Virus record (IMG/VR): IMGVR_UViG_3300005288_000109
Coordinates: 1 to 23,844 of that record
Direction: 5' to 3' (one strand)
Source: a virus
Length of the DNA: 23,844 bases
The position numbers were made by a program, and so were the translations under genes. Shown piece after piece: positions 1-12,459 of the stretch. The number at the start of each line of letters is the position of its first letter. Position 1 is the stretch's first letter. The notes under the pieces are model-generated. The model saw nothing but the letters and a program-made list of their open reading frames with translations. It was not told the DNA's origin and ran no database searches.

Positions 1-7
1 GTCTTTA

Positions 8-109
8 CTCATTACTACTTGCCTCTCTCCTCATGTAGTAGTGAGCTTTCTAAAACTATTCCTTTGCGAAGCATATTGTAGGTTGTCCTGTCGAGATAGT
101 TTTAGAAAG
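8..109 (+). other. Structured leader: two abutting stem-loops
   Basis: Two inverted repeats lie directly next to each other. The first pairs 8-18 with 35-45 (11 bp, one G-T) around a 16-nt loop. The second is a perfect 14-bp pairing of 46-59 with 96-109. Its 36-nt loop contains two small hairpins, TGC-GAA-GCA near 67-75 and AGG-TTGT-CCT near 80-89. The stems could stack on each other. No gene fits in 1-138. The element may be an mRNA leader, the 3' part of a longer RNA that begins outside the window, or a DNA recognition site for packaging, since pac or cos sites often lie beside the small terminase gene. The repeats are directly visible; the role is inference. Confidence 0.5.
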
Positions 110-138
110 AATTTTATTAATTCTATAAGGTAATATTT

Positions 139-540
139 ATGGCTAATAAGAATCCTAACAAATCTACGAGATTTGACGGGGAAAAGTCGAACAGAAATAC
201 GAAATCAAATAGTAAAGTTCGCATCCAGAAATCTAAGCTTCGTGATACTGCTGCCAAGCTCCGAGAGCTGGAAAGTAAGTGCCTAGAAAACATTAAGAAC
301 AGTGTTGAAGGAAAAGAAGTAGAACCTAAACAGCTTGATTCTTCGAAGTGGGTTATCAACTCCCTGATCAGTCTGGACCGTGCAGCTAGTCAAGAAGAAG
401 CATCCCTCACTAAGATTCGTCTTGAAGGGAAAAGAGATGAGGACGATGAAGCTGATCAACAGGAAGCTGCTGAGATTGTAAAGCTTGTGCCTCGTTTGAA
501 GCGTACGTTTGATGAAAATGATGTAAAGAAAGATGATTAA
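139..540 (+). CDS. Putative terminase small subunit
   Basis: This encodes a 133-residue, highly charged protein. The basic N-terminus (about residues 1-35, rich in Lys, Arg, Asn and Ser) could contact DNA. Helical segments around 30-55 and 68-100 follow, the first with coiled-coil-like spacing, and the tail is acidic to mixed. A TAAGGTAA ribosome binding site sits just ahead of the ATG. Small terminase subunits are usually 100-180 residues, form rings and recognise the packaging site. The size, charge and position at the head of the packaging and head cluster fit that role, but I see no diagnostic motif. The HeH protein at 2445-2807 is the alternative candidate. The stop overlaps the next ORF by 8 nt. 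Confidence 0.45.
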   Translation: MANKNPNKSTRFDGEKSNRNTKSNSKVRIQKSKLRDTAAKLRELESKCLENIKNSVEGKEVEPKQLDSSKWVINSLISLDRAASQEEASLTKIRLEGKRDEDDEADQQEAAEIVKLVPRLKRTFDENDVKKDD

Positions 541-685
541 ACTTTCTAATCTTGATCCATCTAAAATCAAACCATCTCCTAGAGAAGAAACTTTAGAACG
601 TCTTAAGAAGTGGACAGAAGCTCAAGAGAAACTTGAAAAGGTTTGCAAAGAACTTGGTATTCCAGTTCCTGTTATGGTTTGTTAA
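533..685 (+). CDS. Small hypothetical protein, 50 residues
   Basis: The ATG lies inside the last codons of the upstream gene (8-nt overlap, consistent with coupled translation), and the frame runs to TAA at 683-685. The product starts MIKLSNLDPSK and contains one charged amphipathic helix of roughly 25 residues rich in Lys and Glu, followed by a Pro/Val-rich end (GIPVPVMVC). No Shine-Dalgarno beyond the upstream coding sequence is obvious. The codon pattern looks coding rather than random, and the overlap is typical of phage operons. I do not recognise a family. It could be a small accessory protein of the packaging complex, but that rests only on position. Confidence 0.5.
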   Translation: MIKLSNLDPSKIKPSPREETLERLKKWTEAQEKLEKVCKELGIPVPVMVC

Positions 686-925
686 AGAATTCCCGGACTG
701 CCTAGTTCTGGAACCCGTGGTTCTGGCGGACCACTGATGTAAATGACTGCTGGAAAGACAGCATGTGGTGAAGGCATCCGAACTATTGCGGGTGAGAGTT
801 CAGTCTAGAGGAAGTGTTCTAGGATTGACAACTATACTATAAGGGAGTGATACATCATTCTCTTGATTCAAAGCAGACGAGGCTGCCCAACTAAAAGCCT
901 ATGCTGTCTGTCTATAGGCTATAAT
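686..925 (+). ncRNA. Candidate structured noncoding RNA
   Basis: This gene-free stretch carries a run of stem-loops: 708-715 with 719-726; 730-734 with 765-769, enclosing 748-752 with 759-763; 780-784 with 797-801; 804-809 with 818-823; 841-850 with 855-864 (10 bp, tetraloop TACA); 873-876 with 883-886; and 896-902 with 914-920 (perfect 7 bp). In addition, 756-764 (AGACAGCAT) is exactly complementary to 901-909, in the loop of the last hairpin, so a long-range pseudoknot or an alternative fold is possible. No ORF with a ribosome binding site is present. It is not a recognisable tRNA, tmRNA or group I intron core. It could be a long 5' leader of the fibre genes or a separate RNA. Confidence 0.45.
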
Positions 926-969
926 TCCTCAGTACAAGACACCTAAAATAAATATAATAAAGGTGTTTC

Positions 970-1236
970 ATGGCTACTACCATTCCAGATTTACAAATCA
1001 ATAATACTGCCTACTTAGATTTATACGCAGCAACAGGAATTCCTGTAGGCACTCGTCTAGTGATACAGAATAAGACCACTGTTGGTGCCTTCCTCCAAAT
1101 AAAGAATTTTCAACCAGCTTCAAACTCTCAAGATGGAATCTTTCTAGAAGCTTACAAGTTTTATATTCTAGATGCTAACGAGGTTGGATGCTGGGTTAAA
1201 GGTATGACAAAGCTCTCCGTTCAGGAGATTGTTTAA
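970..1236 (+). CDS. Small virion protein, probable fibre partner
   Basis: This encodes an 88-residue protein behind an AAAGGTG ribosome binding site. It is rich in beta-prone residues, with a central run around PVGTRLVIQNKTT followed by LQIK, a form I associate with small phage structural proteins made of a single beta-barrel. The C-terminus (TKLSVQEIV) is typical of such virion proteins. Its stop overlaps the ATG of the fibre gene (TAATG), so the two are translationally coupled and probably act together, for example as a capsid or tail adaptor and a fibre. The assignment as a virion protein is inference from composition and context. Confidence 0.5.
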   Translation: MATTIPDLQINNTAYLDLYAATGIPVGTRLVIQNKTTVGAFLQIKNFQPASNSQDGIFLEAYKFYILDANEVGCWVKGMTKLSVQEIV

Positions 1237-2309
1237 TGCCTGCTCATCCTTATTTCCCTTCGCTGAATGAGAATACCTCTGGATCTGTTAATTCTGTTAA
1301 TGGAGAGCAAGGAGATGTTGTCCTAACTGCTCAAGATTTACAAGCTCAGCCTCACTCAGATATCTTGACAGATATTGCAGCTATTATGATGCCTGATAAT
1401 AGCTTGTTGATGGTGAACAATGTAGGTGACTTTACTCCCGCAAGTTGTATGCCTGCTGGAGTTGCGTGGTTAGGTTATTCGACTGTAGACCAACAGAAAG
1501 CCCACTTGTCATATTCTCAAGCGGCTGACTCTGGAAGCTACAATGACTTGAGTGATAAGCCAAGCATTCCAGACGCTCAAGTAGCCAGCGATTGGAACTC
1601 AAGTGGCGGTGTTTCTCAGGTGTTAAACAAACCTATTCTGTCATCAGTAGCCCTATCAGGGTCATACAACGATCTAACGAATAAGCCTACTATTCCTTCG
1701 GCACAAGTGCCATCTGATTGGACTTCTGTAAGCGGTGTGAGCCAGATACTGAACAAACCAACATTGTTCTCTGGAAACTACTCTGATCTTACTGGAAAGC
1801 CAAGCCTATTCAGTGGCAGCTATGTAGACCTTACAAACAAGCCCGTGTTGTTTGATGGGACATATACAAGCCTGACAGGTAAGCCTACAACGTTTACTCC
1901 CTCTGTTCACAACCAAGCTTGGTCAACGATTACATCTACACCAACTACTTTATCTGGTTACGGGATTACTGATGCTTATCCTCTGTCCAGTAATCCAAGT
2001 GGTTATCTGACAAGCGCCTCTTTGAGTAGCTACAGGAAGACTGAAACATTCTTAGGAACTACGGATGCAAATGGTAACTTTACAATTACATTTGCAAACA
2101 CTTACAGTACACCACCAGACGTTCAACCTCAGATAATCGGCGGCACATTCAATCAGTCTATCAGGGTTGTGTCTGTGACAAATACTGGCTGTGTTGTACA
2201 AGCAGCACAACGCAATCTTGTAACATTGCTTTCCGTTGAAGTGTTACTAGGAGCTACAGTAAATCTTGTAGGGGCTTCTGTTACCGTACAAGTTACTGCA
2301 AGAGTCTAA
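1236..2309 (+). CDS. Fibre protein with repeated SGSYxDLTxKP motifs
   Basis: This encodes a 357-residue fibre. Residues 20-37 (SVNGEQGDVVLTAQDLQA) match the collagen-free fibre-shaft motif seen in many phage head and tail fibres. Residues 97-220 hold at least five copies of a repeat of the form SGSYxDLTxKPxI/L, some separated by a longer AQVxSDW...GVSQxLNKP unit. Residues 265-357 form a Ser/Thr/Val-rich beta domain that looks like a trimeric receptor-binding tip. An AGGAG ribosome binding site precedes the ATG, which overlaps the previous stop. The position between the small terminase candidate and the large terminase, far from the baseplate genes, favours a head fibre or decoration fibre, but a side tail fibre is possible. 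Confidence 0.7.
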   Translation: MPAHPYFPSLNENTSGSVNSVNGEQGDVVLTAQDLQAQPHSDILTDIAAIMMPDNSLLMVNNVGDFTPASCMPAGVAWLGYSTVDQQKAHLSYSQAADSGSYNDLSDKPSIPDAQVASDWNSSGGVSQVLNKPILSSVALSGSYNDLTNKPTIPSAQVPSDWTSVSGVSQILNKPTLFSGNYSDLTGKPSLFSGSYVDLTNKPVLFDGTYTSLTGKPTTFTPSVHNQAWSTITSTPTTLSGYGITDAYPLSSNPSGYLTSASLSSYRKTETFLGTTDANGNFTITFANTYSTPPDVQPQIIGGTFNQSIRVVSVTNTGCVVQAAQRNLVTLLSVEVLLGATVNLVGASVTVQVTARV

Positions 2310-2319
2310 ATGATTTACC

Positions 2320-2345
2320 AGTTGCCTTTGAGATATAGGGCAACT
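2320..2345 (+). terminator. Stem-loop after the fibre gene, possible terminator
   Basis: AGTTGCC at 2320-2326 pairs perfectly with GGCAACT at 2339-2345, extended by a G-T pair, around a loop of about 10 nt. It lies 11 nt after the fibre stop. The following sequence is A/T-rich with T runs further down (2361-2371) but has no immediate T tract, so it is a weak terminator or a 3' end stabiliser. Confidence 0.4.
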
Positions 2346-2379
2346 TAATAAGTTATTTGCTATTTATTTTTAGAAACAC

Positions 2380-2408
2380 TTGACAGCAGTGATAAATGTT
2401 TGATACAC
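2380..2408 (+). promoter_or_regulatory. Possible sigma70-like promoter
   Basis: A perfect -35 box TTGACA lies at 2380-2385. GATACA follows at 2402-2407 after a 16-nt spacer, a poor -10 match (3 of 6). It sits about 40 nt ahead of the ATG at 2445 and just after a stem-loop, so it would start a new transcript covering the HeH protein, pseudo-ATPase and terminase genes. A similar TTGACA ... GATACA pair occurs at 825-854, inside the structured region. Confidence 0.35.
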
Positions 2409-2444
2409 TTCATCCTCAAGATTAAGAACACGAGGAGAATTTAA

Positions 2445-2807
2445 ATGAATCGATATATGTTGTACGTTACAGGTAATGATAGCCTCGGCTACAACTTCAT
2501 GAAGAACGTGGTAGAAGCTTCCAATAAAGGCGCTGTCCTTCAAGAAGACAAAGTACCACGACTGAACTATCCACATAGTTGCTGGATGTATATTGAAAGC
2601 AAAGAGATGTTGGAAGATAGTCCGGGCTTTCGTTATCAAGTAATTCAAGAGAATTATACGAAAGAACAACTTGAAGATATGCCTATTGAGGAAATTCGAC
2701 CAATCCTTGCCCGCCGGGGCATTAAAGGTCGCGATAAATCAAAGATGATCAAGCAGTATCTTGCCACTTGTGATGGCGGCGAGAAGGCTTCGGAAGAAGC
2801 CGAGTAA
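2445..2807 (+). CDS. HeH/SAP-like domain protein
   Basis: This encodes a 120-residue protein. Residues 1-65 form an unrecognised mixed domain with several aromatic residues (SCWMYIE near 45-51). Residues 72-107 read as a helix-extension-helix unit: YTKEQLEDMPIEEIRPILA, then RGIKGRDKSKMIKQYL, with the conserved turn GI-KGRDKSKMI typical of SAP, HeH and LEM folds that bind nucleic acid. The tail is acidic. A GAGGAGAA ribosome binding site precedes the ATG. It is first in a run leading into the terminase genes, so a part in genome recognition or packaging is plausible, and it is an alternative small terminase candidate. The domain call is by motif, the function by position. Confidence 0.6.
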   Translation: MNRYMLYVTGNDSLGYNFMKNVVEASNKGAVLQEDKVPRLNYPHSCWMYIESKEMLEDSPGFRYQVIQENYTKEQLEDMPIEEIRPILARRGIKGRDKSKMIKQYLATCDGGEKASEEAE

Positions 2808-2842
2808 AACAATTTAATTAATCCGCTATGGAGCAAGACGCT

Positions 2843-3487
2843 ATGTCAAAAGTAATATTTGCAACAAAGATGCAGAAAGAAGTTTTGGAAAGCAATGAGA
2901 AGCTGACAGTGATTACGGCAGAGCCGGGAGCTGGTTCAACTGTAGCCCTTCTGATGAAGGCTTATAAAGAAGCTAGCGACAATCATGATGTCAATGTTAC
3001 TTTCTTTGTACGAACCAAATGGGATATTCAACTACCGGGTGGTGTTCGCTCTGAGTTCATGAAACTGTTTGGTGAAGATGTTCGCTATTCTGAAACTTCC
3101 TGCATTGCAACCCTGAAGAATGGTTCAAAGATTAAGTTTGTAGCCTGTGATAAAGGTGTGGAGTCAACACTCGGCTTTGCTAAGGATTTAGTACTATACG
3201 ACATCAGTATCCCTAAAGACTTTGTTCTAGCTCATCTCTTCCGAGCTAATAAGATGGTCATTGTTGACTCAATTGAGAATCTTGAAAAAGATGACTCTTG
3301 GGCAAACATTGCTAATCTTCTAGATAAAGTTGATGGCAAGATCACTGGCTTCTGTGATTCTGTGAATCATATCACTGGGACAATTGAAGAGAACTTCTTG
3401 TTTGAGGGTGATAGAGAGCATTACAAAGAGTTGGTGATGCAGTCAATTCCCGGACGAATGAAAGTTCAGTTTGGGAGTGTTGTGTAA
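2843..3487 (+). CDS. Terminase-like pseudo-ATPase, no nuclease domain
   Basis: This encodes a 214-residue protein with the layout of a large terminase ATPase domain. Residues 23-34 occupy the P-loop place but read AEPGAGSTV, so the essential Lys of GxGK(S/T) is Ser32. Residues 55-120 follow the true terminase closely (FFVRTKW...GGVRSEFMKLF, then KNGSKIKFVACDKGVESTLGFAKDLVLYD against the terminase's SSGAEISFSHYENDTAAKKYQGIQISNIFYDE). In the Walker B place it has YDI rather than YDE. The end, HYKELVMQSIPGRMKVQFG, resembles LYKSNLEALPTLDKERLLHG, which closes the terminase ATPase domain, and no nuclease part follows. It is probably inactive in ATP hydrolysis and may be a regulatory partner. The start at 2843 has GGAG 9 nt upstream; the in-frame ATG at 2828 has no such site. 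Confidence 0.65.
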   Translation: MSKVIFATKMQKEVLESNEKLTVITAEPGAGSTVALLMKAYKEASDNHDVNVTFFVRTKWDIQLPGGVRSEFMKLFGEDVRYSETSCIATLKNGSKIKFVACDKGVESTLGFAKDLVLYDISIPKDFVLAHLFRANKMVIVDSIENLEKDDSWANIANLLDKVDGKITGFCDSVNHITGTIEENFLFEGDREHYKELVMQSIPGRMKVQFGSVV

Positions 3488-4134
3488 TGGTTAGTCGTAA
3501 GTATGTTGAGGGTGCTACATTTGGTCAGCTTACAATTGTAGGAATGGCTCCGAGACGAGGAACTAATAAATTTGTTTATTGTACTTGTTCTTGTGGTAAT
3601 CCAGAAACTATTGAAGTGTTCATTGGCAACTTAGGCCGAGGACATACTACATCTTGTGGTTGTGCTTTTAAAGAAGCTATTACCAAACACGGACTTCACA
3701 ATACTCTAGAATATAGAGTAAGAACTTATATGATCCAACGTTGCTACAATGAAAACCACGACTCTTATTTGGACTATGGTGGACGTGGAATTAATGTCTG
3801 TGAGCGTTGGTTAGAGTCAGTTGAGAATTTTTATACTGATATGGGTCCATGCCCTGATGGTATGACTCTAGAACGTATTGATGTCAATGGTAACTACTGC
3901 CCTGAAAACTGCAAGTGGGATACACCCAGTAATCAAGGTTATAACAAACGTATCCGTGAGTCTAACACATCAGGAAGAACAGGTGTTTATTGGGCTGAAC
4001 GAGAAGGTTTTTGGAAAGCTCAAATAGGCTATATGGGTAAGGTGTTTTCTCTCGGATCAAGCACATCTTTTGAAGAAGCTGTTAAACTAAGAGAAAAAGC
4101 CGAACTACACTATTATGGATGGATTAAGGAATAA
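3487..4134 (+). CDS. HNH homing endonuclease with AP2-like C-terminal domain
   Basis: This encodes a 215-residue free-standing endonuclease. Cys32, Cys34, Cys36, Cys57 and Cys59 form a likely zinc site (CTCSC ... SCGC). Residues 84-145 are the HNH nuclease core: RCYNENHDSYLDYGGRGI, then CERW, DMGPCPDGMTLERID, NGNYCPENCKWDT. Residues 158-211 (SGRTGVYWAEREGFWKAQI ... EEAVKLREKAELHYYG) form an AP2-like DNA-binding domain. The family cuts DNA to promote copying of itself or of a neighbouring intron into alleles that lack it. It sits at the junction between the pseudo-ATPase and terminase genes (TAATG overlap, GGGAG site upstream). It ends 2 nt before the terminase ATG and about 0.35 kb from the intron, and is the obvious candidate to mobilise that intron. 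Confidence 0.9.
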   Translation: MVSRKYVEGATFGQLTIVGMAPRRGTNKFVYCTCSCGNPETIEVFIGNLGRGHTTSCGCAFKEAITKHGLHNTLEYRVRTYMIQRCYNENHDSYLDYGGRGINVCERWLESVENFYTDMGPCPDGMTLERIDVNGNYCPENCKWDTPSNQGYNKRIRESNTSGRTGVYWAEREGFWKAQIGYMGKVFSLGSSTSFEEAVKLREKAELHYYGWIKE

Positions 4135-4136
4135 GA

Positions 4137-5911
4137 ATGACTGACGCAGTGACTATTGGTCCTGCGTCCCCCTTCCAAGAAAAGTATCTGAACTCCGATG
4201 CTCAGATAATGTTGGTTGGAGGGGCGGCAGGAAGTTCTAAGAGTTACGTGGGTTTGATGAGGCACCTACGCTTTGTAGATGATCCAAATTATCGAGCATA
4301 TTGCATCCGAAAGAACTCCAGTGCAATTATGGCTTCTGGTGGTTTGTTTTGGGAAGCCGTTAAATTATATACTCAGTTTGATCCTAAGATTAAAGTAAAA
4401 CTAAAAGATCAGAAGATTGTATTTAGTAGTGGTGCTGAGATTAGCTTCTCTCACTATGAGAATGATACAGCAGCTAAGAAATATCAAGGTAAATTGATTG
4501 CCTAGTGTAGTGGTGACATTACACCGTAACTTGGTTAATTCGGTGAAACCCCTAACGTAGAGTCGAGGGCAATACCGAGCGAAGCCCGAAAGGGAACGTG
4601 TAACGACTATCGCGAAAGCGAGTAGCCCTAAGTGGGGCGAAACACCAAGCATCTCGTTGAGATGGAGATATAGTCTGATCTATATGGAAACATATAGCTG
4701 CGAAAGCGGATAGGTGATTAACGCTACCTATTGAACAAACAATGATTCAAATTTCAAACATTTTCTATGATGAGGTAACTCACGCAGATAATGAAGATCA
4801 ACTTTGGTGGTTATGGTCACGTCTTCGTTCCGATTCAAAGAACATCCATTCAATGTGGTGGTCTTGCAATCCGGATAACGGGAGTTGGGTTCTTAAGTAC
4901 GCCATGCCGTTTTTGTACCCTGAAGGCCACGAATTAGCTGGTCGTCCAGACCCTGCAATGAATGGTGTTGTTAGGTATCTACTGCGAATTAACGGTGAAC
5001 TTTCTTGGGGAGAAACTCCGGAAGAGTTGATTGAAAAGCACGGTAATCCTGACCTACCCCACGACCATGAAGACCAAGTAAAACCAATTAGCTTCCAAGG
5101 TTTGTTCGGGACTATTGATGATAACCCTCCACTTAAAAAATCTAACAAACTTTACAAAAGTAATTTAGAAGCCTTGCCAACTCTGGACAAGGAGCGGTTA
5201 CTACACGGCAATTGGTTTGCGCGTGCTTCTAATTCGACGTACTATTCCAGATCGACTGTACCAGAACTACTTGAGATTCCACACGAATCTGAGTTTGTTA
5301 AGATTGTTCGTGCCTACGACGTTGCTGGTACTCTACCCCATGATGGTAATCGTGAGACAGATTATTTTGCGTCTGTAAAGATGGGTAAGTTGAAGAGTGG
5401 TAATTACGTAATCTTAGATGTTTGCCGTACACGTATTACCTTCGGCGATTGGTTCTCTCATATCTGTAGTAATGCGGAAAGAGACGGTCATAACGTAGAA
5501 ATAATCTTACCTGAAGATCCTAACCCAGCTTCAAAAGCATCTACAGTCTTGCTTGCCCGTTCATTGATTGAACAAGGTTATATAACCAAGACAAGACGTT
5601 CTGCTGGTGGTAAGTTAGACTCCTTTAGACCTTTTGCAGCATCCGCTGAACTTGGTGTGGTCTCTATTGTTAGAGATTGTGCTAATGACCTTTGGAATAA
5701 GGTTGTTAATAACAATGACTTCTTCCACGCTGAGTTGGAGAATTTTGATGGAAAGCGCCGTAGCGGCCCCCTAGGCCACGACGATATGTGCGACTGTTGT
5801 TCTCTAGCTTTCCTCTTTCTGGCACAAAAGATTAATATACCAAACTTTTCGTCTGGTTTACTTTCAGCGAAACTTACCAATACTAACCCCTTCCTTAATG
5901 CAGGAGCTTAA
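4137..5911 (+). CDS. terL: Terminase large subunit, split by a group I intron
   Basis: The exons are 4137-4490 (118 codons) and 4745-5911 (388 codons plus stop), joined in phase 0 to give 506 residues, normal for the family. The protein is the packaging motor ATPase and genome-cutting nuclease. Walker A is GGAAGSSKS (28-36). After splicing the Walker B region reads KYQG-IQISNIFYDE with the catalytic Asp127-Glu128, and a coupling motif WWSCNPD lies at 156-162. The nuclease domain has Asp310 (VRAYDVAG), Glu376-Asp377 (LPEDPN) and GHDDMCD at 462-468. Without splicing the reading frame stops after four intron codons (KLIA, TAG at 4503-4505), so splicing is required for function. An AAGGA site lies 6 nt before the ATG. 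Confidence 0.93.
4491..4744 (+). ncRNA. Group I intron in terL, no ORF, 254 nt
   Basis: P1 is formed by exon AGGU (4487-4490) with GCCU (4500-4503), giving the expected U-G pair at the 5' splice site. P2 pairs 4505-4512 with 4517-4524 around GUGA. P4 pairs 4540-4544 with 4574-4578, P5 4550-4553 with 4566-4569, and P6 is a CCC-GAAA-GGG hairpin (4585-4594). P7 pairs GACTA (4605-4609) with TAGTC (4671-4675), and P8 is TCGC-GAAA-GCGA (4610-4621). P9 is CTATATG-GAAA-CATATAG (4680-4697), followed by hairpins 4698-4709 and 4710-4731. The intron ends in G4744. The core strings (AACGACUAU, GGAGAUAUAGUCU) resemble the T4 td intron. Bases 4494-4499 could pair with the 3' exon (5 of 6) as P10. It should self-splice. 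Confidence 0.93.
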
Positions 5912-7405
5912 ATGGCTGACGAAGCAGAAATCTCCCTAGAGGCAGGGGACAATGAAATCCCAACTCTTTCTCTTGGGGAAGCTGGCTATAATGGCCTTCG
6001 GGTTTTAGGCGGCGAAATTCTTGAAGAATGTTCTCATGAACTGCGTTGGCCGCAAGCGATGCAGACTTTTAAACGTATGGAAAAGGACGGGGCTATTGCT
6101 CCAGCACTTGCATATGTGGAAATGATGATTTCTCGTGTTGACTGGAGTGTAAAGATTCCAGAAGGCTACGAAGAACAACTTAAAGATAAAGCTATCTACA
6201 TGCGTCAAGTTATGAATGATATGGAACACGATTTCAAGTCTTTCATTAAACAAGCTGTAAGCTTTAATCGGTACGGTTTTGCACCAGTTGAAAAGGTTCT
6301 AAGACTGAGATACCGAGATAAGGGCTCTCAATATAATGATGGGCTTGTTGGCATTAAGAAGCTTGTACTTCGTTCACAAGACACAATTGATAGCTGGAAA
6401 TTTACAAACAAGGGTCGTGATCTTGCTGGACTCTATCAGTGTGTAAATATCCAGAGCAACCGTGCTGCTAATTCTTACGAAGAAGTTGCAAACTATACTT
6501 ACGAAGATAATATCAAATTTATCCCTCGTAAAAAGTTCATGCTCTTTCGCTCAAATCCAATAAAAAACAACCCGGAAGGGCAATCCCCTCTAGTTGGTTG
6601 CTGGTCGGCATGGAAGTATAAGACAGCCTACCAAGAGTCCGAAGCTATTAGCGTAGCTCAAGATTCAAATGGGTTCAAGGTTCTTTACCTCCCCCCACAG
6701 TATATGACTGAAGATGCTTCTGAAGATAATAAAGCAGTCTTTGAGCACTATAAAACTGTAATTAAGAACATGCATCAGGCCAAGGAATCAGGACTAATCC
6801 TCCCCTTGATCCTAGATGACAACGGTAAGAAGATGTTTGAGTTTGAGATTATGTCTGTAACAGGGCAAAAGTCTTACGACACAAACGCCATTATCCAACG
6901 TTATACAGCAGAAATCCTTACGGCTTTGTTTGCTGACTTCCTATCTCTTGGTAGTAACGGTAGTGGTAGCTTCTCTCTTGCAGAGTCAAAGATTAGTGTT
7001 GTTGAGATGGCTATTCAATCAAAGCTGGATGAGATTAAAACTCAACTTAACTTTGACCTTGCCAAACAATTATTTAAGTTGAATGGTTGGTCAACCGACG
7101 TAATGCCTGAATGGACTTACGGCGAGATTGGTAAAGTCTCTATGGACGAAATCGGTAAGTTCGTACAACGAGTTTCCGCAGTATCCATGATGCCTAAAAC
7201 ACCACAAGTTGTTAACTGGATTATGGAACAAGCCAATATTCCTTATAAAGTTGACCCAGATACTTCTATCGGGGACTTGTCTGAGATGCTTACACCAATG
7301 ACTTCAGGTGCAGCTCAAGGTATGACCTCCGGTATGAGCAACGGCGTTGGAGGTTCTAATGGATCTTCGGGAGACAGTTCAACCAGTAATACGGAAAATA
7401 CATAG
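5912..7405 (+). CDS. Portal protein (DUF935 / Mu gp29-like)
   Basis: This encodes a 497-residue protein starting directly after the terminase stop, with AGGAG 5 nt upstream. Features typical of DUF935-type portals are visible: an N-terminal region with PQAMQTFKRMEKDGAIAPAL near 47-66, a stem with FNRYGFAPVEKV near 118-129, a segment FIPRKKFMLFRSNPI near 208-222, and a C-terminal helical part with SFSLAESKISVVEMAIQSKL near 352-371. The last 40 residues are a flexible Ser/Gly/Asn-rich tail. Twelve copies would form the ring at the capsid vertex through which DNA is pumped by the terminase and to which the connectors dock. The position between terL and the protease is the usual one. Confidence 0.85.
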   Translation: MADEAEISLEAGDNEIPTLSLGEAGYNGLRVLGGEILEECSHELRWPQAMQTFKRMEKDGAIAPALAYVEMMISRVDWSVKIPEGYEEQLKDKAIYMRQVMNDMEHDFKSFIKQAVSFNRYGFAPVEKVLRLRYRDKGSQYNDGLVGIKKLVLRSQDTIDSWKFTNKGRDLAGLYQCVNIQSNRAANSYEEVANYTYEDNIKFIPRKKFMLFRSNPIKNNPEGQSPLVGCWSAWKYKTAYQESEAISVAQDSNGFKVLYLPPQYMTEDASEDNKAVFEHYKTVIKNMHQAKESGLILPLILDDNGKKMFEFEIMSVTGQKSYDTNAIIQRYTAEILTALFADFLSLGSNGSGSFSLAESKISVVEMAIQSKLDEIKTQLNFDLAKQLFKLNGWSTDVMPEWTYGEIGKVSMDEIGKFVQRVSAVSMMPKTPQVVNWIMEQANIPYKVDPDTSIGDLSEMLTPMTSGAAQGMTSGMSNGVGGSNGSSGDSSTSNTENT

Positions 7406-8181
7406 TGAGAGAACTAAAGGATAAAGGTTGGGTAACTCCAACCGATAGAGAATCTTATTATGTATATGCTTTATATGACCTGAATGGATGGCCTTTCTAT
7501 ATAGGCAAGGGTAAAAACCTTCGTTTAAATAATCATGTAAAGCCAACTCTACTCAAAGAAAACTGCTACAAGAATTTTAAAATTAAAAAGATTCTTAAAG
7601 AGCAAGGTTATCTTAAAAGAGAGATTCTTTGCTATTGTGAATCAGAAGAGTCCGCACTAAATCTAGAAAAAGATTTAATTGCAGCTTATGGCATTTATAC
7701 AGAAAACGGCCTTCTGACTAACCACTCCAAACATCATTGGGACTTGCCAGCCAAGGCTTACGTAAAGAAAGCAGAAGCCCAGAAAGTTGAAAGACAAAGC
7801 CGTGTTTCTGATGAGTTGATTTTAAAAGCTTATAACTCTTGGAAATTTGATTTTGTCTCCATCCTCTCTCTAGCTGAAGGTTTAGGTCTTTCATCTTCTT
7901 ATCTCGGTAAGGTTTTTGAAGGCAAGAAACGGAAAGATTTAGGTCTTACTATTGAAACGCCCAGTAGACAATCACTTCGTTTAGGTATGGGTAAGCAACA
8001 ACTGATTGAGTTTGCTGAAGATCGGTTCGTTAATAAATTTTCCTATAGTCAATTAATGTCTAAATATTCTATGCCTAAAACAACAGTTGCTAGAGTTCTT
8101 AAGATGGAAGGTGTTTATTCTTTTCTTAAAGAACTTTATCCAGACGAACTTAAAAATAAGGAGTCCATTTATGGCCCATGA
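7405..8181 (+). CDS. GIY-YIG homing endonuclease
   Basis: This encodes a 258-residue free-standing endonuclease starting at a GTG that overlaps the portal stop (TAGTG), with a weak GGAA site 8 nt upstream. The nuclease domain occupies about residues 17-100: YVY at 19-21, FYIGKG at 31-36, Arg40, and Glu88 in the ALNLEKDLI helix are the expected catalytic positions. The C-terminal half has two helix-turn-helix-like segments, near 150-175 (SILSLAEGLGLSSSYLGKVF) and 215-245 (SYSQLMSKYSMPKTTVARVL), suited to target recognition. The 3' end carries the ribosome binding site of the protease gene and overlaps it by 11 nt, so the insertion keeps both neighbours intact. The gene is more A/T-rich than the flanking head genes, consistent with transfer. 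Confidence 0.88.
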   Translation: MRELKDKGWVTPTDRESYYVYALYDLNGWPFYIGKGKNLRLNNHVKPTLLKENCYKNFKIKKILKEQGYLKREILCYCESEESALNLEKDLIAAYGIYTENGLLTNHSKHHWDLPAKAYVKKAEAQKVERQSRVSDELILKAYNSWKFDFVSILSLAEGLGLSSSYLGKVFEGKKRKDLGLTIETPSRQSLRLGMGKQQLIEFAEDRFVNKFSYSQLMSKYSMPKTTVARVLKMEGVYSFLKELYPDELKNKESIYGP

Positions 8182-9523
8182 ATTAGCTCGCTTTCGTAGC
8201 AAGCTGTTCGATACTCCCCTCCTAGTGGACTCTAAAAGTTTTGAATCTATTCTTAACTATGTAGACAAGCGTTGTGAAGGGACTGTTGATGTTGTGCAGA
8301 AAGAAGCTAGTAATGAGTTCTCGATGTATAGCACTTTGCATTATGCGGAATCAAATCTTGGTGTTATCCACATCTCTGGCCCACTGACTAACAAGTCAAC
8401 TGGATGGGAAGCATTGTGTGGTGGTACATCGTATGAAAGTATTAAAGAAGACTTTGAAGCCTTGCTTGAAGCTGGTACTAAGACTGTAGCCTTTATGGTT
8501 GAGTCTGGCGGCGGTGAAGCCTACGGTATGATGGATACTGGTAACTATCTGCGTAAGTTGGCAGATGAAAACGGTGTTCGTATCATCTCGTATGTCGATG
8601 GCCTCAGTGCTTCGGCAGCCTACGGTCTTACTGCTATCTCTGATGAAATCATCTCTAATAAGAATTCTGAAATCGGTTCTATCGGTGTCTTGATTCGTTT
8701 GATGAATGATTCTAAAGCTCTTGAGATGGAAGGTTATCAGCGTTCCTTCATTAGTGCTGGCACTCAGAAGATTCCATACTCTGAAGACGGTTCTTTCCGT
8801 AAAGAGTTCTTGGATGACTTGCAATACAAAGTAGACACTCTCTACACAGACTTCGCAGAGTATGTTGCTGAACACCGCAACTTGTCTGTAGAAGCAGTTC
8901 GGAATACTCAAGCAAACACTTTCCTAGCGGGAGACGCGATTGCCTTGGGCCTAGCTGACCGGATTCTTACTCAGGAAGAGTTTTATTCGTACCTATCGGG
9001 CGAAGCCCAAACCAATAAAGAAGGAAGTTCGATGAGTAATCGTATCTTTAAATTTAGTAAAACCAATACTGAGGAAACTCTGAATATGTCGCAACTCGCT
9101 GAATTGCAAGCACAACTTGCACAGTACGAAGGCCAAGTAGCAGAGCTTACCTCTGTCAAAGAAACCCTGACTACTCTCCAATCTGCATTTGCAGAAAAAG
9201 AAGCAGCCCTGACTGAAGCACTTGCTCAAGTAGCCTCTGCGGAAGCTGCCGCTGTCACCGTTAAACTGGACGCACGTAAGTCCAAACTTGCCGCTGTAAT
9301 GTCCGCTGACAAACTGGAAGCTGTTTCTGCTTCCCTGTCCAGCCTTGACGACTCGGCATTTGAAACTGTTCTGAGTGGTTTTGCTGCACAGAAACAAGCT
9401 CTTGAAGCATCTGACATGTTTACAGAGATTGGCGACCAAGGTACTGAAGCTGTTGTAGAGACTACCTCGAAAGCTAAAACTTCTACCGAAGATCAAATTA
9501 AACAAAAACTCGGTCTAGTATAA
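8171..9523 (+). CDS. Head maturation protease, S49 family, with C-terminal scaffold
   Basis: This encodes a 450-residue protein. Residues 1-275 are an S49 (SppA/lambda C-like) serine protease: an oxyanion-region VESGGGEAYGM (110-120), the nucleophile Ser148 in DGLSASAAYG, and Lys200 in SAGTQKIPY as the likely general base. Residues 288-450 are a Glu/Gln/Ala-rich coiled coil ending in basic and hydrophobic residues, the form of a capsid scaffold. The protease would cut scaffold and other head proteins during maturation. The start at 8171 has AAGGAGT upstream; the frame is open further 5' (to 8087), but that part only overlaps the GIY-YIG gene. The nested arrangement resembles lambda C/Nu3. Confidence 0.88.
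   Translation: MAHELARFRSKLFDTPLLVDSKSFESILNYVDKRCEGTVDVVQKEASNEFSMYSTLHYAESNLGVIHISGPLTNKSTGWEALCGGTSYESIKEDFEALLEAGTKTVAFMVESGGGEAYGMMDTGNYLRKLADENGVRIISYVDGLSASAAYGLTAISDEIISNKNSEIGSIGVLIRLMNDSKALEMEGYQRSFISAGTQKIPYSEDGSFRKEFLDDLQYKVDTLYTDFAEYVAEHRNLSVEAVRNTQANTFLAGDAIALGLADRILTQEEFYSYLSGEAQTNKEGSSMSNRIFKFSKTNTEETLNMSQLAELQAQLAQYEGQVAELTSVKETLTTLQSAFAEKEAALTEALAQVASAEAAAVTVKLDARKSKLAAVMSADKLEAVSASLSSLDDSAFETVLSGFAAQKQALEASDMFTEIGDQGTEAVVETTSKAKTSTEDQIKQKLGLV
9032..9523 (+). CDS. Internal in-frame scaffold protein, nested in the protease gene
   Basis: ATG at 9032 (protease codon 288) is preceded by AAGGAAG at a suitable distance and opens a 163-residue product that is the whole coiled-coil tail of the protease. 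A second in-frame ATG at 9086 also has GAGGAAA 8 nt upstream and would give 145 residues. The product is rich in Ala, Gln, Glu and Leu (AELQAQLAQYEGQ, then EALAQVASAEAA), as expected of a helical scaffold that fills the procapsid and is later removed. Lambda Nu3 is made the same way from within gene C. The internal starts are seen directly; their use is inference. Confidence 0.6.
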   Translation: MSNRIFKFSKTNTEETLNMSQLAELQAQLAQYEGQVAELTSVKETLTTLQSAFAEKEAALTEALAQVASAEAAAVTVKLDARKSKLAAVMSADKLEAVSASLSSLDDSAFETVLSGFAAQKQALEASDMFTEIGDQGTEAVVETTSKAKTSTEDQIKQKLGLV

Positions 9524-9564
9524 GTCTAAAGACTTTACGCACTACTCTTTAAAAGGAAACAAAT

Positions 9565-10029
9565 ATGCCTTTCGTTGCTGCTACTTTCGTACAACGCTTC
9601 TCTGATCTTGTTGTACATGAGCTTGACCCATCTGTTGGTTATAGCCGCCGTGACCTGAACGTCACCCCTATCACTCCAGCTATCCGTATGGGTACTGTAG
9701 TTTATCGTGCCAAGTCTGCTGACCTCACTGCTGCTTGGACCGTACTGGCCTCTGCTGCTCCTCTGGTATTGACTAATGAATTCGCTGTTGTTTATGGCGA
9801 TCATTTCTCGTTCAATCCTTCGTTCGTTCCTCGTGCAATTGCTGCAAATCAATATAACGCTGTTGGTTTTGTTGGTACTTCGGGTGCTCTGCAACTGAAA
9901 GAATACTACATCAAACAAGTTGCAAAAGACACCGCTCCTAATGGTGGCGCTGCCCTGACTGATGCTCAAGTTGAAACCCTGAAGGGTCTGCTTGAGCAAC
10001 AAGGCATCCAAGTTCTCAAAACTGTTTAA
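9565..10029 (+). CDS. Head decoration protein (lambda D-like family)
   Basis: This encodes a 154-residue protein behind AAAAGGAAAC. It starts MPFVAATFVQRFSD, is beta-rich, and has a central PITPAIRMGTVVYRAK and a later FVGTSGALQLKEYYI. This pattern, together with the position between the protease/scaffold and the major capsid protein, fits a lambda D-like decoration protein that caps the mature shell. Codon use is strongly biased to GCT, CGT and CTG, like the capsid gene next to it, suggesting high expression. The C-terminus (DAQVETLKGLLEQQGIQVL) is helical. The 41-nt gap upstream holds a small AAGTC-TAAA-GACTT hairpin (9522-9535). Confidence 0.75.
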   Translation: MPFVAATFVQRFSDLVVHELDPSVGYSRRDLNVTPITPAIRMGTVVYRAKSADLTAAWTVLASAAPLVLTNEFAVVYGDHFSFNPSFVPRAIAANQYNAVGFVGTSGALQLKEYYIKQVAKDTAPNGGAALTDAQVETLKGLLEQQGIQVLKTV

Positions 10030-10061
10030 TTACAGATTATATTTAAGGAATTATAAATACT

Positions 10062-11126
10062 ATGGCAATTGTACTTGACCGCACTAATCTGGGTAAGGTT
10101 GTAGATCGTACCGAATCCCTGATTGTTATCCCAAACACCGTTGGTATCACCAATGCTCTGGGCCTGTTCCAAGACGACTATCGCAGTCAGAAGAACATTG
10201 AAATTGTTCGCAGCACCAAGAAAAGCCACATTCTGGAAGACCGTAACTGGGATGAGCGTAATCAGACTATTGCTGGTCGTCAACACGACTCGCTGCTGCT
10301 GAAGATCCCTCACTTCCCTCTGGACGATGCAATCACTCCTAACGATATCGACGGTATTGTTCAGGCTGGTTCGCTGGCAGAGTTTGCTGAGCTGGAAACC
10401 GTTGCTTCGGTTCGTGCTGACAAGATGATTGATATGCGTGAAGCGCATTCCCTGACCCTTGAAGCTGCTCGTATGCAGATGATTGTAACTGGTACTGCTT
10501 ATGCTCCTCGTGGCACTGTAGTTACCAACTTCTACACCGAGTTTGGTGTTACCCGTACTGAAATTGATGTTGATTTCTCGGGTGCTGCTGACCCTCGTGC
10601 AACCATCAACACCGCTAAGAAAGCAGTTCGTAACGGTCTGCGTGATGGTCAAGCCGGTACTGTTCGTTCGTTCGTAGTACTGTGCTCTGATTCGTTCTAT
10701 ATGGCTCTGCAACAAAACGCCTTCGTAACTGATGCATTCAAGTATGTTGACCAAGGTCAAGCTCTGAGTGTTCTGTTGGGTCGTGGCGGTAATGACGTTG
10801 CTGGTCTGGACGCTCGTTTCGAACAAATGTCCCTGTTCGGTTGCACCTTCATCAACGCTGGTGCTGCTGGTTACGAGAATGCTGCTGGTACTTTCGTACC
10901 GTTCATTCCAGAAGGTGATGCTTACATGCTGCCTGTTGGTGTGCGTGACCTGTTCAAAACTTACTACGCTCCGGCTAACCGTTTTGGTACCGTGAACCGT
11001 CGTGCTCAGGGTAGCTACTGGTACGAATACCTGAACGAAAAAGATGACATCATCGAAATCATGACTGAGCAAAACTTCTTGAACGCATTGCTCAATCCTG
11101 CTGCTGTTGTTCGTTTGTTCCTCTGA
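10062..11126 (+). CDS. Major capsid protein (lambda E-like family)
   Basis: This encodes a 354-residue capsid protein with an AAGGAA site upstream. Diagnostic segments of the phage major capsid protein E family are visible: LLLKIPHFPLDDAITPNDIDG near residues 76-96, a middle part with GVTRTEIDVDFSGAADP, LRDGQAGTVRSFVVLCSDSFY leading into the peripheral domain, and the C-terminal YYAPANRFGTVNRRAQGSYWYEYLNEKDD followed by ALLNPAAVVRLFL. It has the HK97 fold in known members and forms the icosahedral shell. Codon use is the most biased in the window (CTG for Leu, CGT for Arg), in line with a very abundant product. A stem-loop follows the stop. Confidence 0.92.
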   Translation: MAIVLDRTNLGKVVDRTESLIVIPNTVGITNALGLFQDDYRSQKNIEIVRSTKKSHILEDRNWDERNQTIAGRQHDSLLLKIPHFPLDDAITPNDIDGIVQAGSLAEFAELETVASVRADKMIDMREAHSLTLEAARMQMIVTGTAYAPRGTVVTNFYTEFGVTRTEIDVDFSGAADPRATINTAKKAVRNGLRDGQAGTVRSFVVLCSDSFYMALQQNAFVTDAFKYVDQGQALSVLLGRGGNDVAGLDARFEQMSLFGCTFINAGAAGYENAAGTFVPFIPEGDAYMLPVGVRDLFKTYYAPANRFGTVNRRAQGSYWYEYLNEKDDIIEIMTEQNFLNALLNPAAVVRLFL

Positions 11127-11141
11127 TTGTAAATTATAATA

Positions 11142-11159
11142 GGGGCTTGAAAGAGCCCC
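11142..11159 (+). promoter_or_regulatory. Stem-loop after the capsid gene
   Basis: GGGGCT at 11142-11147 pairs perfectly with AGCCCC at 11154-11159 around TGAAAG. No T tract follows, so it is more likely an mRNA 3' stabiliser or partial attenuator than a full terminator. It is similar in stem and loop to the one after the first tube gene (16173-16194). Confidence 0.5.
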
Positions 11160-11179
11160 ATATTCTGGAGTAAAAGAAT

Positions 11180-11407
11180 ATGGCTGTAGAAACTAAAAAT
11201 GGTTGGATCTTCGCTGTCCGTCAACTTGATGGTGCGATCGTAGGTGCAACTGTTCCCGCTGCAAGTACCACTGTTGCTGGTAAAGTAAAACAAATTACTT
11301 TTACTGCTCAACAATCCCCAGCATTTGCAGACCTTACTGCTGTAACCACAGCTTATAATGCATTGCTTACTAAATTGATTGCTGCCGGTATTATGCCTGC
11401 TGCGTAA
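11180..11407 (+). CDS. Small head-fibre-like protein
   Basis: This encodes a 75-residue protein behind a TGGAG site. The C-terminal part, FADLTAVTTAYNALLTKLIAAGIM, resembles the ending of small head fibre proteins of the phi29 gp8.5 type, in which such a helix follows a short beta region (here AGKVKQITFTAQQ). It lies directly after the major capsid gene and before a strong hairpin, as expected of a capsid accessory protein. It may bind the shell surface. The short length and limited motif make this a moderate call. Confidence 0.55.
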   Translation: MAVETKNGWIFAVRQLDGAIVGATVPAASTTVAGKVKQITFTAQQSPAFADLTAVTTAYNALLTKLIAAGIMPAA

Positions 11408-11412
11408 GTATA

Positions 11413-11436
11413 AAGGGCAGAGTTAACTCTGCCCTT
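11413..11436 (+). terminator. Strong hairpin closing the head module
   Basis: AAGGGCAGAG (11413-11422) pairs perfectly over 10 bp with CTCTGCCCTT (11427-11436) around the tetraloop TTAA. It is followed by GTAGTTTAGAATATTTT, which is T-rich but interrupted. It lies 5 nt after the stop of the small head protein and is the best intrinsic terminator in the window, separating the head genes from the LAGLIDADG gene. Readthrough must reach the connector genes unless there is a promoter downstream. Confidence 0.75.
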
Positions 11437-11496
11437 GTAGTTTAGAATATTTTGTGCTAAGCTGTTCAATCAAATTTTAAATAAAGGAGATTGAAA

Positions 11497-12459
11497 ATGC
11501 TAGCCCCAACATTTGTAGACGATAATGCACTTTGTGTGTTCGCTGTAGAATTATATAATTCTGGTAAACTCAAGAAAGAGGTTGCTGAGATTCTGGGTAT
11601 CAACCCGCGAACACTCTATGATAAGCTAAAAGCTTTCGGATTTTCTATATACAAAGAAAGGTCCGAAGGGTTATCTGCTGAACAAGAAGTTCAAGTTGCT
11701 GGTATGTATGCAGATGGGATAACAATTGATAATATTGTTATTCAATTGAATATTACTATCCAAGATGTTCGTAAAGTATTTAAGAAGTTTGATATTAAAC
11801 CTAAAAACCATAAGTTCTATAGGGAAAGGTATATAAATAAAAATTCTTTTTCTGATACAGATGAAGAAGAATGCGCTTATTACTATGGTTGGATTGTAAG
11901 TGATGGGTGTCTCTCTTCAACAGGAACTGTGACACTCTCCGTGCATACTAAAGATATTGAAATCTTAGATAATCTTAAAGCATATGTTGGAGGTAACAGG
12001 GCTATCTACTCTGGTGTAACAAGTCCTGACCCCAGAACTGGCACTATTTATCAAGTATCCTCTTTCTCGTTTCAGGATGATGATCTAGCTGAGAGACTTG
12101 TTAGTTTTGGGCTTGAGCAAAGAAAGTCTACTAAAGAAACTTGTCCAGAATGCTTCAAACTTAACCGCCACTTTTGGAGAGGAATGTTAGAGGGTGATGG
12201 TTGTATCTCTAAAACAAGTAATAATTTTGACTTAGTCGGGAGCGATGAAATTGTTCAAGACTTTGCTAATTATTGCAAGTTCTTATTCCCAGAGTGCAAG
12301 CCCAGATTCTACAAGAAAGGTTCGATTAGTGTAGTCAGTCTTTGCAGTAAAGTATACTCTAAACAAATCCTAGATGAATTGTACAGAGACTGTAAATACA
12401 AATTATCTAGAAAGTACAATATTTATTTGGAGAAATACTATGGCACTAACTCCGGTTGA
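11497..12459 (+). CDS. LAGLIDADG homing endonuclease with N-terminal HTH domains
   Basis: This encodes a 320-residue free-standing endonuclease. The ATG at 11497 has AAAGGAG 7 nt upstream; an in-frame TTG at 11491 is less likely. Two helix-turn-helix segments come first: residues 24-49 (KLKKEVAEILGINPRTLYDKL) and 63-97 (DGITIDNIVIQLNITIQDVRKV). Residues 127-305 carry two LAGLIDADG-type motifs, YYYGWIVSDGCL (128-139) and FWRGMLEGDGCI (226-237), each ending in the catalytic acidic residue. A CPEC pair (216-219) lies between them. The gene sits between the head terminator and the connector genes, and its last codons contain the ribosome binding site and the start of the next gene (20-nt overlap), so insertion left the neighbour functional. 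It is more A/T-rich than the capsid gene. Confidence 0.88.
   Translation: MLAPTFVDDNALCVFAVELYNSGKLKKEVAEILGINPRTLYDKLKAFGFSIYKERSEGLSAEQEVQVAGMYADGITIDNIVIQLNITIQDVRKVFKKFDIKPKNHKFYRERYINKNSFSDTDEEECAYYYGWIVSDGCLSSTGTVTLSVHTKDIEILDNLKAYVGGNRAIYSGVTSPDPRTGTIYQVSSFSFQDDDLAERLVSFGLEQRKSTKETCPECFKLNRHFWRGMLEGDGCISKTSNNFDLVGSDEIVQDFANYCKFLFPECKPRFYKKGSISVVSLCSKVYSKQILDELYRDCKYKLSRKYNIYLEKYYGTNSG

Follow-up and report, generated by a model that had tools for sequence, protein, structure and literature searches.

What does the DNA between positions 686 and 969 of this viral genome encode, if not a protein? The window analysed here is the complete 23.8-kb virus record (23,844 nucleotides). A sequence-only reading had described 686-925 as a gene-free series of hairpins with almost no spacers and had proposed it as a candidate new RNA. 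In agreement with this, no convincing open reading frame was found in 686-969, and hairpins with short spacers are present (P1 to P5, and a further one at 896-902/914-920). The interval is indeed structured, but as a single RNA it merges two separate elements and truncates the second. The first is a core RNA, the second a leader-like element of the next gene, called element B (Table 1).

The core RNA is built as a chain of hairpins, numbered from P0 to P5. The first one, P0, is short and mostly has a loop of four bases (UUCG and GNRA types and others); this hairpin is absent from the window and from L043, L045, L048 and L054. The loops of the other hairpins are near-invariant (GCCU, UCUGGCGG, GAAAGA and AGGnnAnnGUG) while the stems vary, and the conserved part of the family ends at a ACAACTAT-like sequence. 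The covariance model of the family matches the window at 699-835 with 112-117 bits, and the flanks of this match are conserved in homologues.

Table 1. Features of the locus and of the large terminase gene, in positions of the window.
Feature	Positions	Strand	Basis or remark
Upstream gene	139-540	+	In nearly every phage a relative lies ahead of the core RNA; small-terminase assignment putative, from position alone
50-aa ORF between upstream gene and core RNA	533-685	+	
Core structured RNA	684-835 (boundaries approximate, ~150 nt)	+	From right after the stop of ORF 533-685 to ACAACTAT
P1	690-699/704-713, loop GCCU 700-703	+	18 distinct arm pairs among members
P2	717-721/730-734, loop UCUGGCGG 722-729	+	Arms versus invariant loop
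P3	748-752/759-763, loop GAAAGA 753-758 (variants in family)	+	Covariation and arm test
Conserved linker, GYGGWGA type (here GUGGUGA)	765-771	+	Alignment of members
P4	775-780/789-794	+	Both sides change in 5/5 modelled pairs; pairing in 96.5% of cells
P5	800-808/819-828, G822 bulged, loop AGGnnAnnGUG type	+	
Element B, separate conserved 5' leader of gene at 970	836-969 (start approximate)	+	
Element B helices	896-902/914-920 and 879-882/927-930	+	
Element B hairpin	939-944/961-966	+	Just before AUG
Downstream gene, phrog_4770	970-1236	+	No assigned function
Group I intron (RF00028, 88 bits)	4481-4697		Inside large terminase gene

The case for a conserved fold comes from an alignment of 25 distinct sequences, which was fitted to the covariance model. 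In this alignment 96.3% of the cells were paired, compared to 53% for shuffles and at most 42% for slid structures, and 20 of the 22 modelled pairs exhibited two-sided changes. Independently of the model, the arms of P1, P2 and P3 were tested. For P1, 122 of 130 positions were paired among members. Wherever the P2 loop is present, the arms around it form 5-6 complementary base pairs, despite widely differing arm sequences; within the model all P2 cells were paired and all four pairs changed on both sides. For P5 two-sided changes were found in 8 of 9 modelled pairs, with 97% of the cells paired. G-U cells (34) by far outnumbered A-C cells (4), which indicates selection on the + strand as RNA. 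A cruciform or pac site at the DNA level was rejected on the same grounds. As judged from these comparisons, 684-835 is a genuine structured RNA and a new family outside Rfam 15. The proposal of a new RNA is thus borne out for the core: its stems change in a compensatory manner across homologues, and at E <= 10 no credible match to a known Rfam family was obtained.

The predicted stability of the fold points in the same direction. The + strand of 686-969 folds with -85.2 kcal/mol (z -2.74) and beats 200 of 200 dinucleotide shuffles, whereas the - strand of 686-930 provides a z-score of +0.76. For the core alone, z is -3.31 on the + strand and -0.42 on the - strand. Compared in kcal/mol, the + strand was the more stable one in all 24 family members tested. 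The z-scores of single members were often modest, such that the argument rests on the covariation.

Homologues of the core RNA were found in about 31 phage contigs, including the isolated Pseudomonas phage vB_PsaM_M1 (M1 in the following). The first loci were reached via relatives of the terminase; IMG/VR was then scanned with patterns of the conserved loops and with covariance model R1. The non-coding stretch is conserved in L002, L004 and L008 by blastn. At scores of 34-137 bits the covariance model detected 26 copies, spread over 25 contigs and including the one of the window; six of these copies had served to build the model, so that their match to it is given from the outset. Another four, diverged copies lie beside element B or in contigs that carry it (L068, L088, L095 and L097), and one more is present in the whole record G012. 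The M1 copy, at about 39340-39640 of the phage record, was spotted by reading the record, whose annotation is blank at this site; it aligns with L097 by blastn (85% over 68 nt, E 5.6e-15) and was missed by the covariance models alone (best 7.4 bits at the site). Among cultured phages blastn returned only M1, with M1 itself as query, and the phages phiPMW and SYP lack the core RNA according to the covariance model. In cellular genomes one exact pattern gave five matches, none of which passed the covariance model. One additional pattern scan gave no match.

The family members differ in the modules they contain. L022 carries a tandem partial duplication of the core RNA (4273-4527), in L068 a tRNA-Met stands in place of P3-P5 (5586-5725), and M1 and L025 contain extra sequence within the RNA. 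Modules such as P2 or P3 are missing in some members (M1, which is without P2, and L068), so that none of the loops is indispensable on its own. In three contigs (L024:1098, L028:5971 and L010:5790-5930) stretches rich in hairpins and containing CUCCUC motifs lie downstream of the core RNA or replace it; they are possibly another RNA element. A second structured-looking stretch follows the core RNA directly in L042 and L045, located between CTGCAAC..GTTGCAG repeats.

Element B was found in 13 contigs, always directly upstream of a start codon. Its cells are 98% paired, compared to at most 44% for slid structures. Two-sided changes are seen in 2 of its 16 pairs; the sequences are too alike for strong covariation to be within reach. 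No credible Rfam match was obtained in 500-1100. Element B has the look of a leader that would regulate the phrog_4770 gene in cis. A pseudoknot between CAGAC (874-878) and GUCUG (906-910) is probable: the pairing fits all ten aligned element-B sequences, a set in which covariation tests it weakly.

This bears on the 9-nt complementarity between AGACAGCAT (756-764) and ATGCTGTCT (901-909), from which the sequence-only reading had derived a pseudoknot or a switch between two folds. The match exists in the sequence; as a meaningful pairing it does not hold up. When 686-925 was dinucleotide-shuffled 2000 times, 118 of the shuffles (~6%) contained at least one perfect 9-nt pair as good as this one, i.e. 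it is at chance level. In the homologues that possess both elements (L002, L019, L022 and L024) the match is reduced to AGAC/GUCU. The two arms belong to two different elements, each of which accounts for its own side: AGAC forms the last part of the P3 loop region and occurs also in phages without element B, while the 901-909 arm falls inside element B, where GUCUG can pair with CAGAC. A pseudoknot or switch formed by the 9-nt pairing was therefore discarded.

We next consider the surroundings of the core RNA. In most genomes it follows a relative of the upstream gene by 15-160 nt, with larger gaps of 318-468 nt in L052 and M1, whereas the gene downstream of it varies. The product of the upstream gene is a putative small terminase subunit, assigned by position only. 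PHROGs and Pfam searches were silent on its family, and tblastn against cultured phages gave no match. AlphaFold2 predicts a helical hairpin with modest confidence, for which Foldseek lists the G20c and P74-26 small terminases among weak matches. The short reading frame that follows is probably a real gene, given that a similar C-terminus (..VPVMVC before the stop) precedes the core RNA in L095.

For about 8 of the 31 genomes a tRNA is the nearest neighbour of the core RNA. According to ARAGORN, L009, L023 and L052 have a tRNA-Thr right before the RNA, and L068, L088, L095 and L097 have a tRNA-Met that follows it directly or overlaps it; in M1 a tRNA-Pro lies downstream. Most members, including the window, have no recognisable adjoining tRNA. 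In L002, L008, L025, L044, L047, L050 and L051 the core RNA is directly preceded by a cloverleaf or three-way-junction fold that looks like a degenerate tRNA and scores below the tRNA model.

Some further features of the window were recorded. Two strong inverted repeats, one with a UCUCUCCUC loop, were noticed by eye at 8-112 upstream of the gene at 139. The large terminase gene is split by the group I intron into 4137-4505 and 4742-5911; RF00028 matches the window only at this intron, and the core RNA was accordingly rejected as a group I intron. Three likely homing endonuclease genes lie among the structural genes: 3487-4134 (HNH-like, judged by eye only), 7405-8181 (GIY-YIG in Pfam) and 11491-12459 (LAGLIDADG/HTH in Pfam).

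How might the core RNA act? We favour, with a probability of roughly 60%, a processed noncoding RNA that acts in trans through its conserved loops; its transcription, its processing, its action in trans and its partner are what we infer. The RNA would be transcribed jointly with the putative small-terminase gene, as a section of one transcript. It would most likely be cut out, by tRNA-processing enzymes where a tRNA adjoins and perhaps by an endonuclease elsewhere. Once free, the RNA would offer its loops (GCCU, UCUGGCGG, GAAAGA and AGGnnAnnGUG) to a partner, or to several, of protein or RNA. We prefer this reading since in several genomes maturation of the adjoining tRNA would split the core RNA from the neighbouring mRNA on the tRNA side, and since the downstream gene is not fixed. 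Against it speak the many members in which no tRNA adjoins and the absence of single loop modules from some of them; the near-constant upstream gene would also suit a role in cis. As a partner of the loops, E. coli rRNA was rejected: 7-mer matches occurred at about chance frequency. GGAAAGAC equals positions 2056-2063 of 23S rRNA; given the loops tested, a single 8-mer match is nothing unusual, and no conclusion is drawn from it.

Two roles in cis were weighed. In the first, the nascent hairpins would bind RNA polymerase as put does in phage HK022, such that antitermination or suppressed pausing lets the late operon be read through. Serial hairpins with conserved loops near the start of an operon leading to terminase, portal and capsid genes would suit such a role, as would the precedent of put, a hairpin pair that acts on the polymerase from the nascent RNA (PMC9378689). 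We consider it unlikely: downstream terminator-like sites are not in excess (for 1-12000, both strands taken together, 10 found versus 8.6 expected), transcription would start anew from a consensus promoter at 2380-2409, and tRNAs stand directly after the core RNA in M1, L068, L088, L095 and L097 and before it in L009, L023 and L052. Moreover, put consists of only two hairpins. The second role, improbable as well, is that of a UTR element: either the RNA would protect or control the upstream mRNA from its 3' end, or it would serve the downstream gene as 5' leader. The short distance to the upstream stop codon in most genomes is what one would expect of the former, yet tRNAs intervene between gene and RNA in L009, L023 and L052 and the gap is wide in L052 and M1. 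For the latter, the downstream gene is not constant and the role of leader is already taken by element B. The set of invariant loops is also richer than a stability hairpin would need.

The close linkage to the putative small-terminase gene raises a link to packaging, in which the RNA or its DNA would be recognised by the neighbouring protein as a pac site or as a partner resembling the phi29 pRNA. The P1 loop (CUGCC) and the P2 loop (GGCGG) are complementary and could kiss between molecules, and a C-for-U change in L037 and L038 keeps the match. M1, however, has the P1 loop without P2, L040 breaks the loop match, the G-U bias reflects selection on RNA and not on DNA, and the neighbour is unproven as a small terminase. 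We regard such a packaging element as quite improbable. The same low standing applies to a variant of the trans-acting reading in which the RNA would work with the adjacent packaging proteins and assemble via the P1 and P2 loops, giving a terminase system an RNA component in phages other than the phi29-like ones. That the RNA is a functionless remnant of an intron or of tRNA genes, as might be suspected from the adjoining tRNAs and the group I intron in terL of the window, is hardly credible in view of the strong covariation across divergent phages; moreover, at E <= 10 neither the tRNA nor the group I intron models match the core.

The hairpins of the core RNA behave like modules that can be exchanged while their loops stay fixed. 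This suggests a partner that recognises the loops and could itself be isolated. Few phage RNA families are backed by covariation this strong, and most of those are without a function. The core RNA is small, sits in a nearly fixed place by a putative packaging gene and is present in the isolated phage vB_PsaM_M1, which makes its expression and role directly testable.

Finally, we compared the core RNA with known systems. The full-text literature searched, with subscription papers mostly outside its scope, contains no description of it; automated phage-RNA catalogues may list it. The packaging RNA of phi29-type phages differs in hosts, structure and packaging system. The core RNA shares with it the complementary loops and the place beside a packaging gene, here a putative one, but its P1/P2 loop complementarity is near-invariant, shows no clear covariation and is not universal. 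Sponge RNAs of the CsrB/RsmZ type are likewise hairpin arrays with recurring loop motifs; such a function was rejected, as GGA is not enriched (93 observed versus 82 expected from shuffles, 26 copies). With HK022 put, of about 70 nt and two hairpins (PMC9378689), the core RNA has in common serial phage hairpins inside an operon, while its five to six hairpins over about 150 nt have unlike loops and another position. An early promoter lies shortly before put; for the core RNA no consensus promoter was found directly upstream on the + strand. cmscan of the window, L002, L009 and M1 against Rfam 15, up to E 10 or 5, gave no credible family for the core RNA and neither GOLLD nor ROOL. These elaborate phage-encoded RNAs often lie near tRNA genes and have no known function (PMC12286853; see also PMC7567579). 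The core RNA has about 150-300 nt where GOLLD and ROOL reach about 600-800 or more, it folds into simple hairpins in a row and it matches none of the Rfam models. It is thus not a member of GOLLD or ROOL, but it resembles them in being encoded by phages and in having, in some genomes, tRNAs as neighbours.
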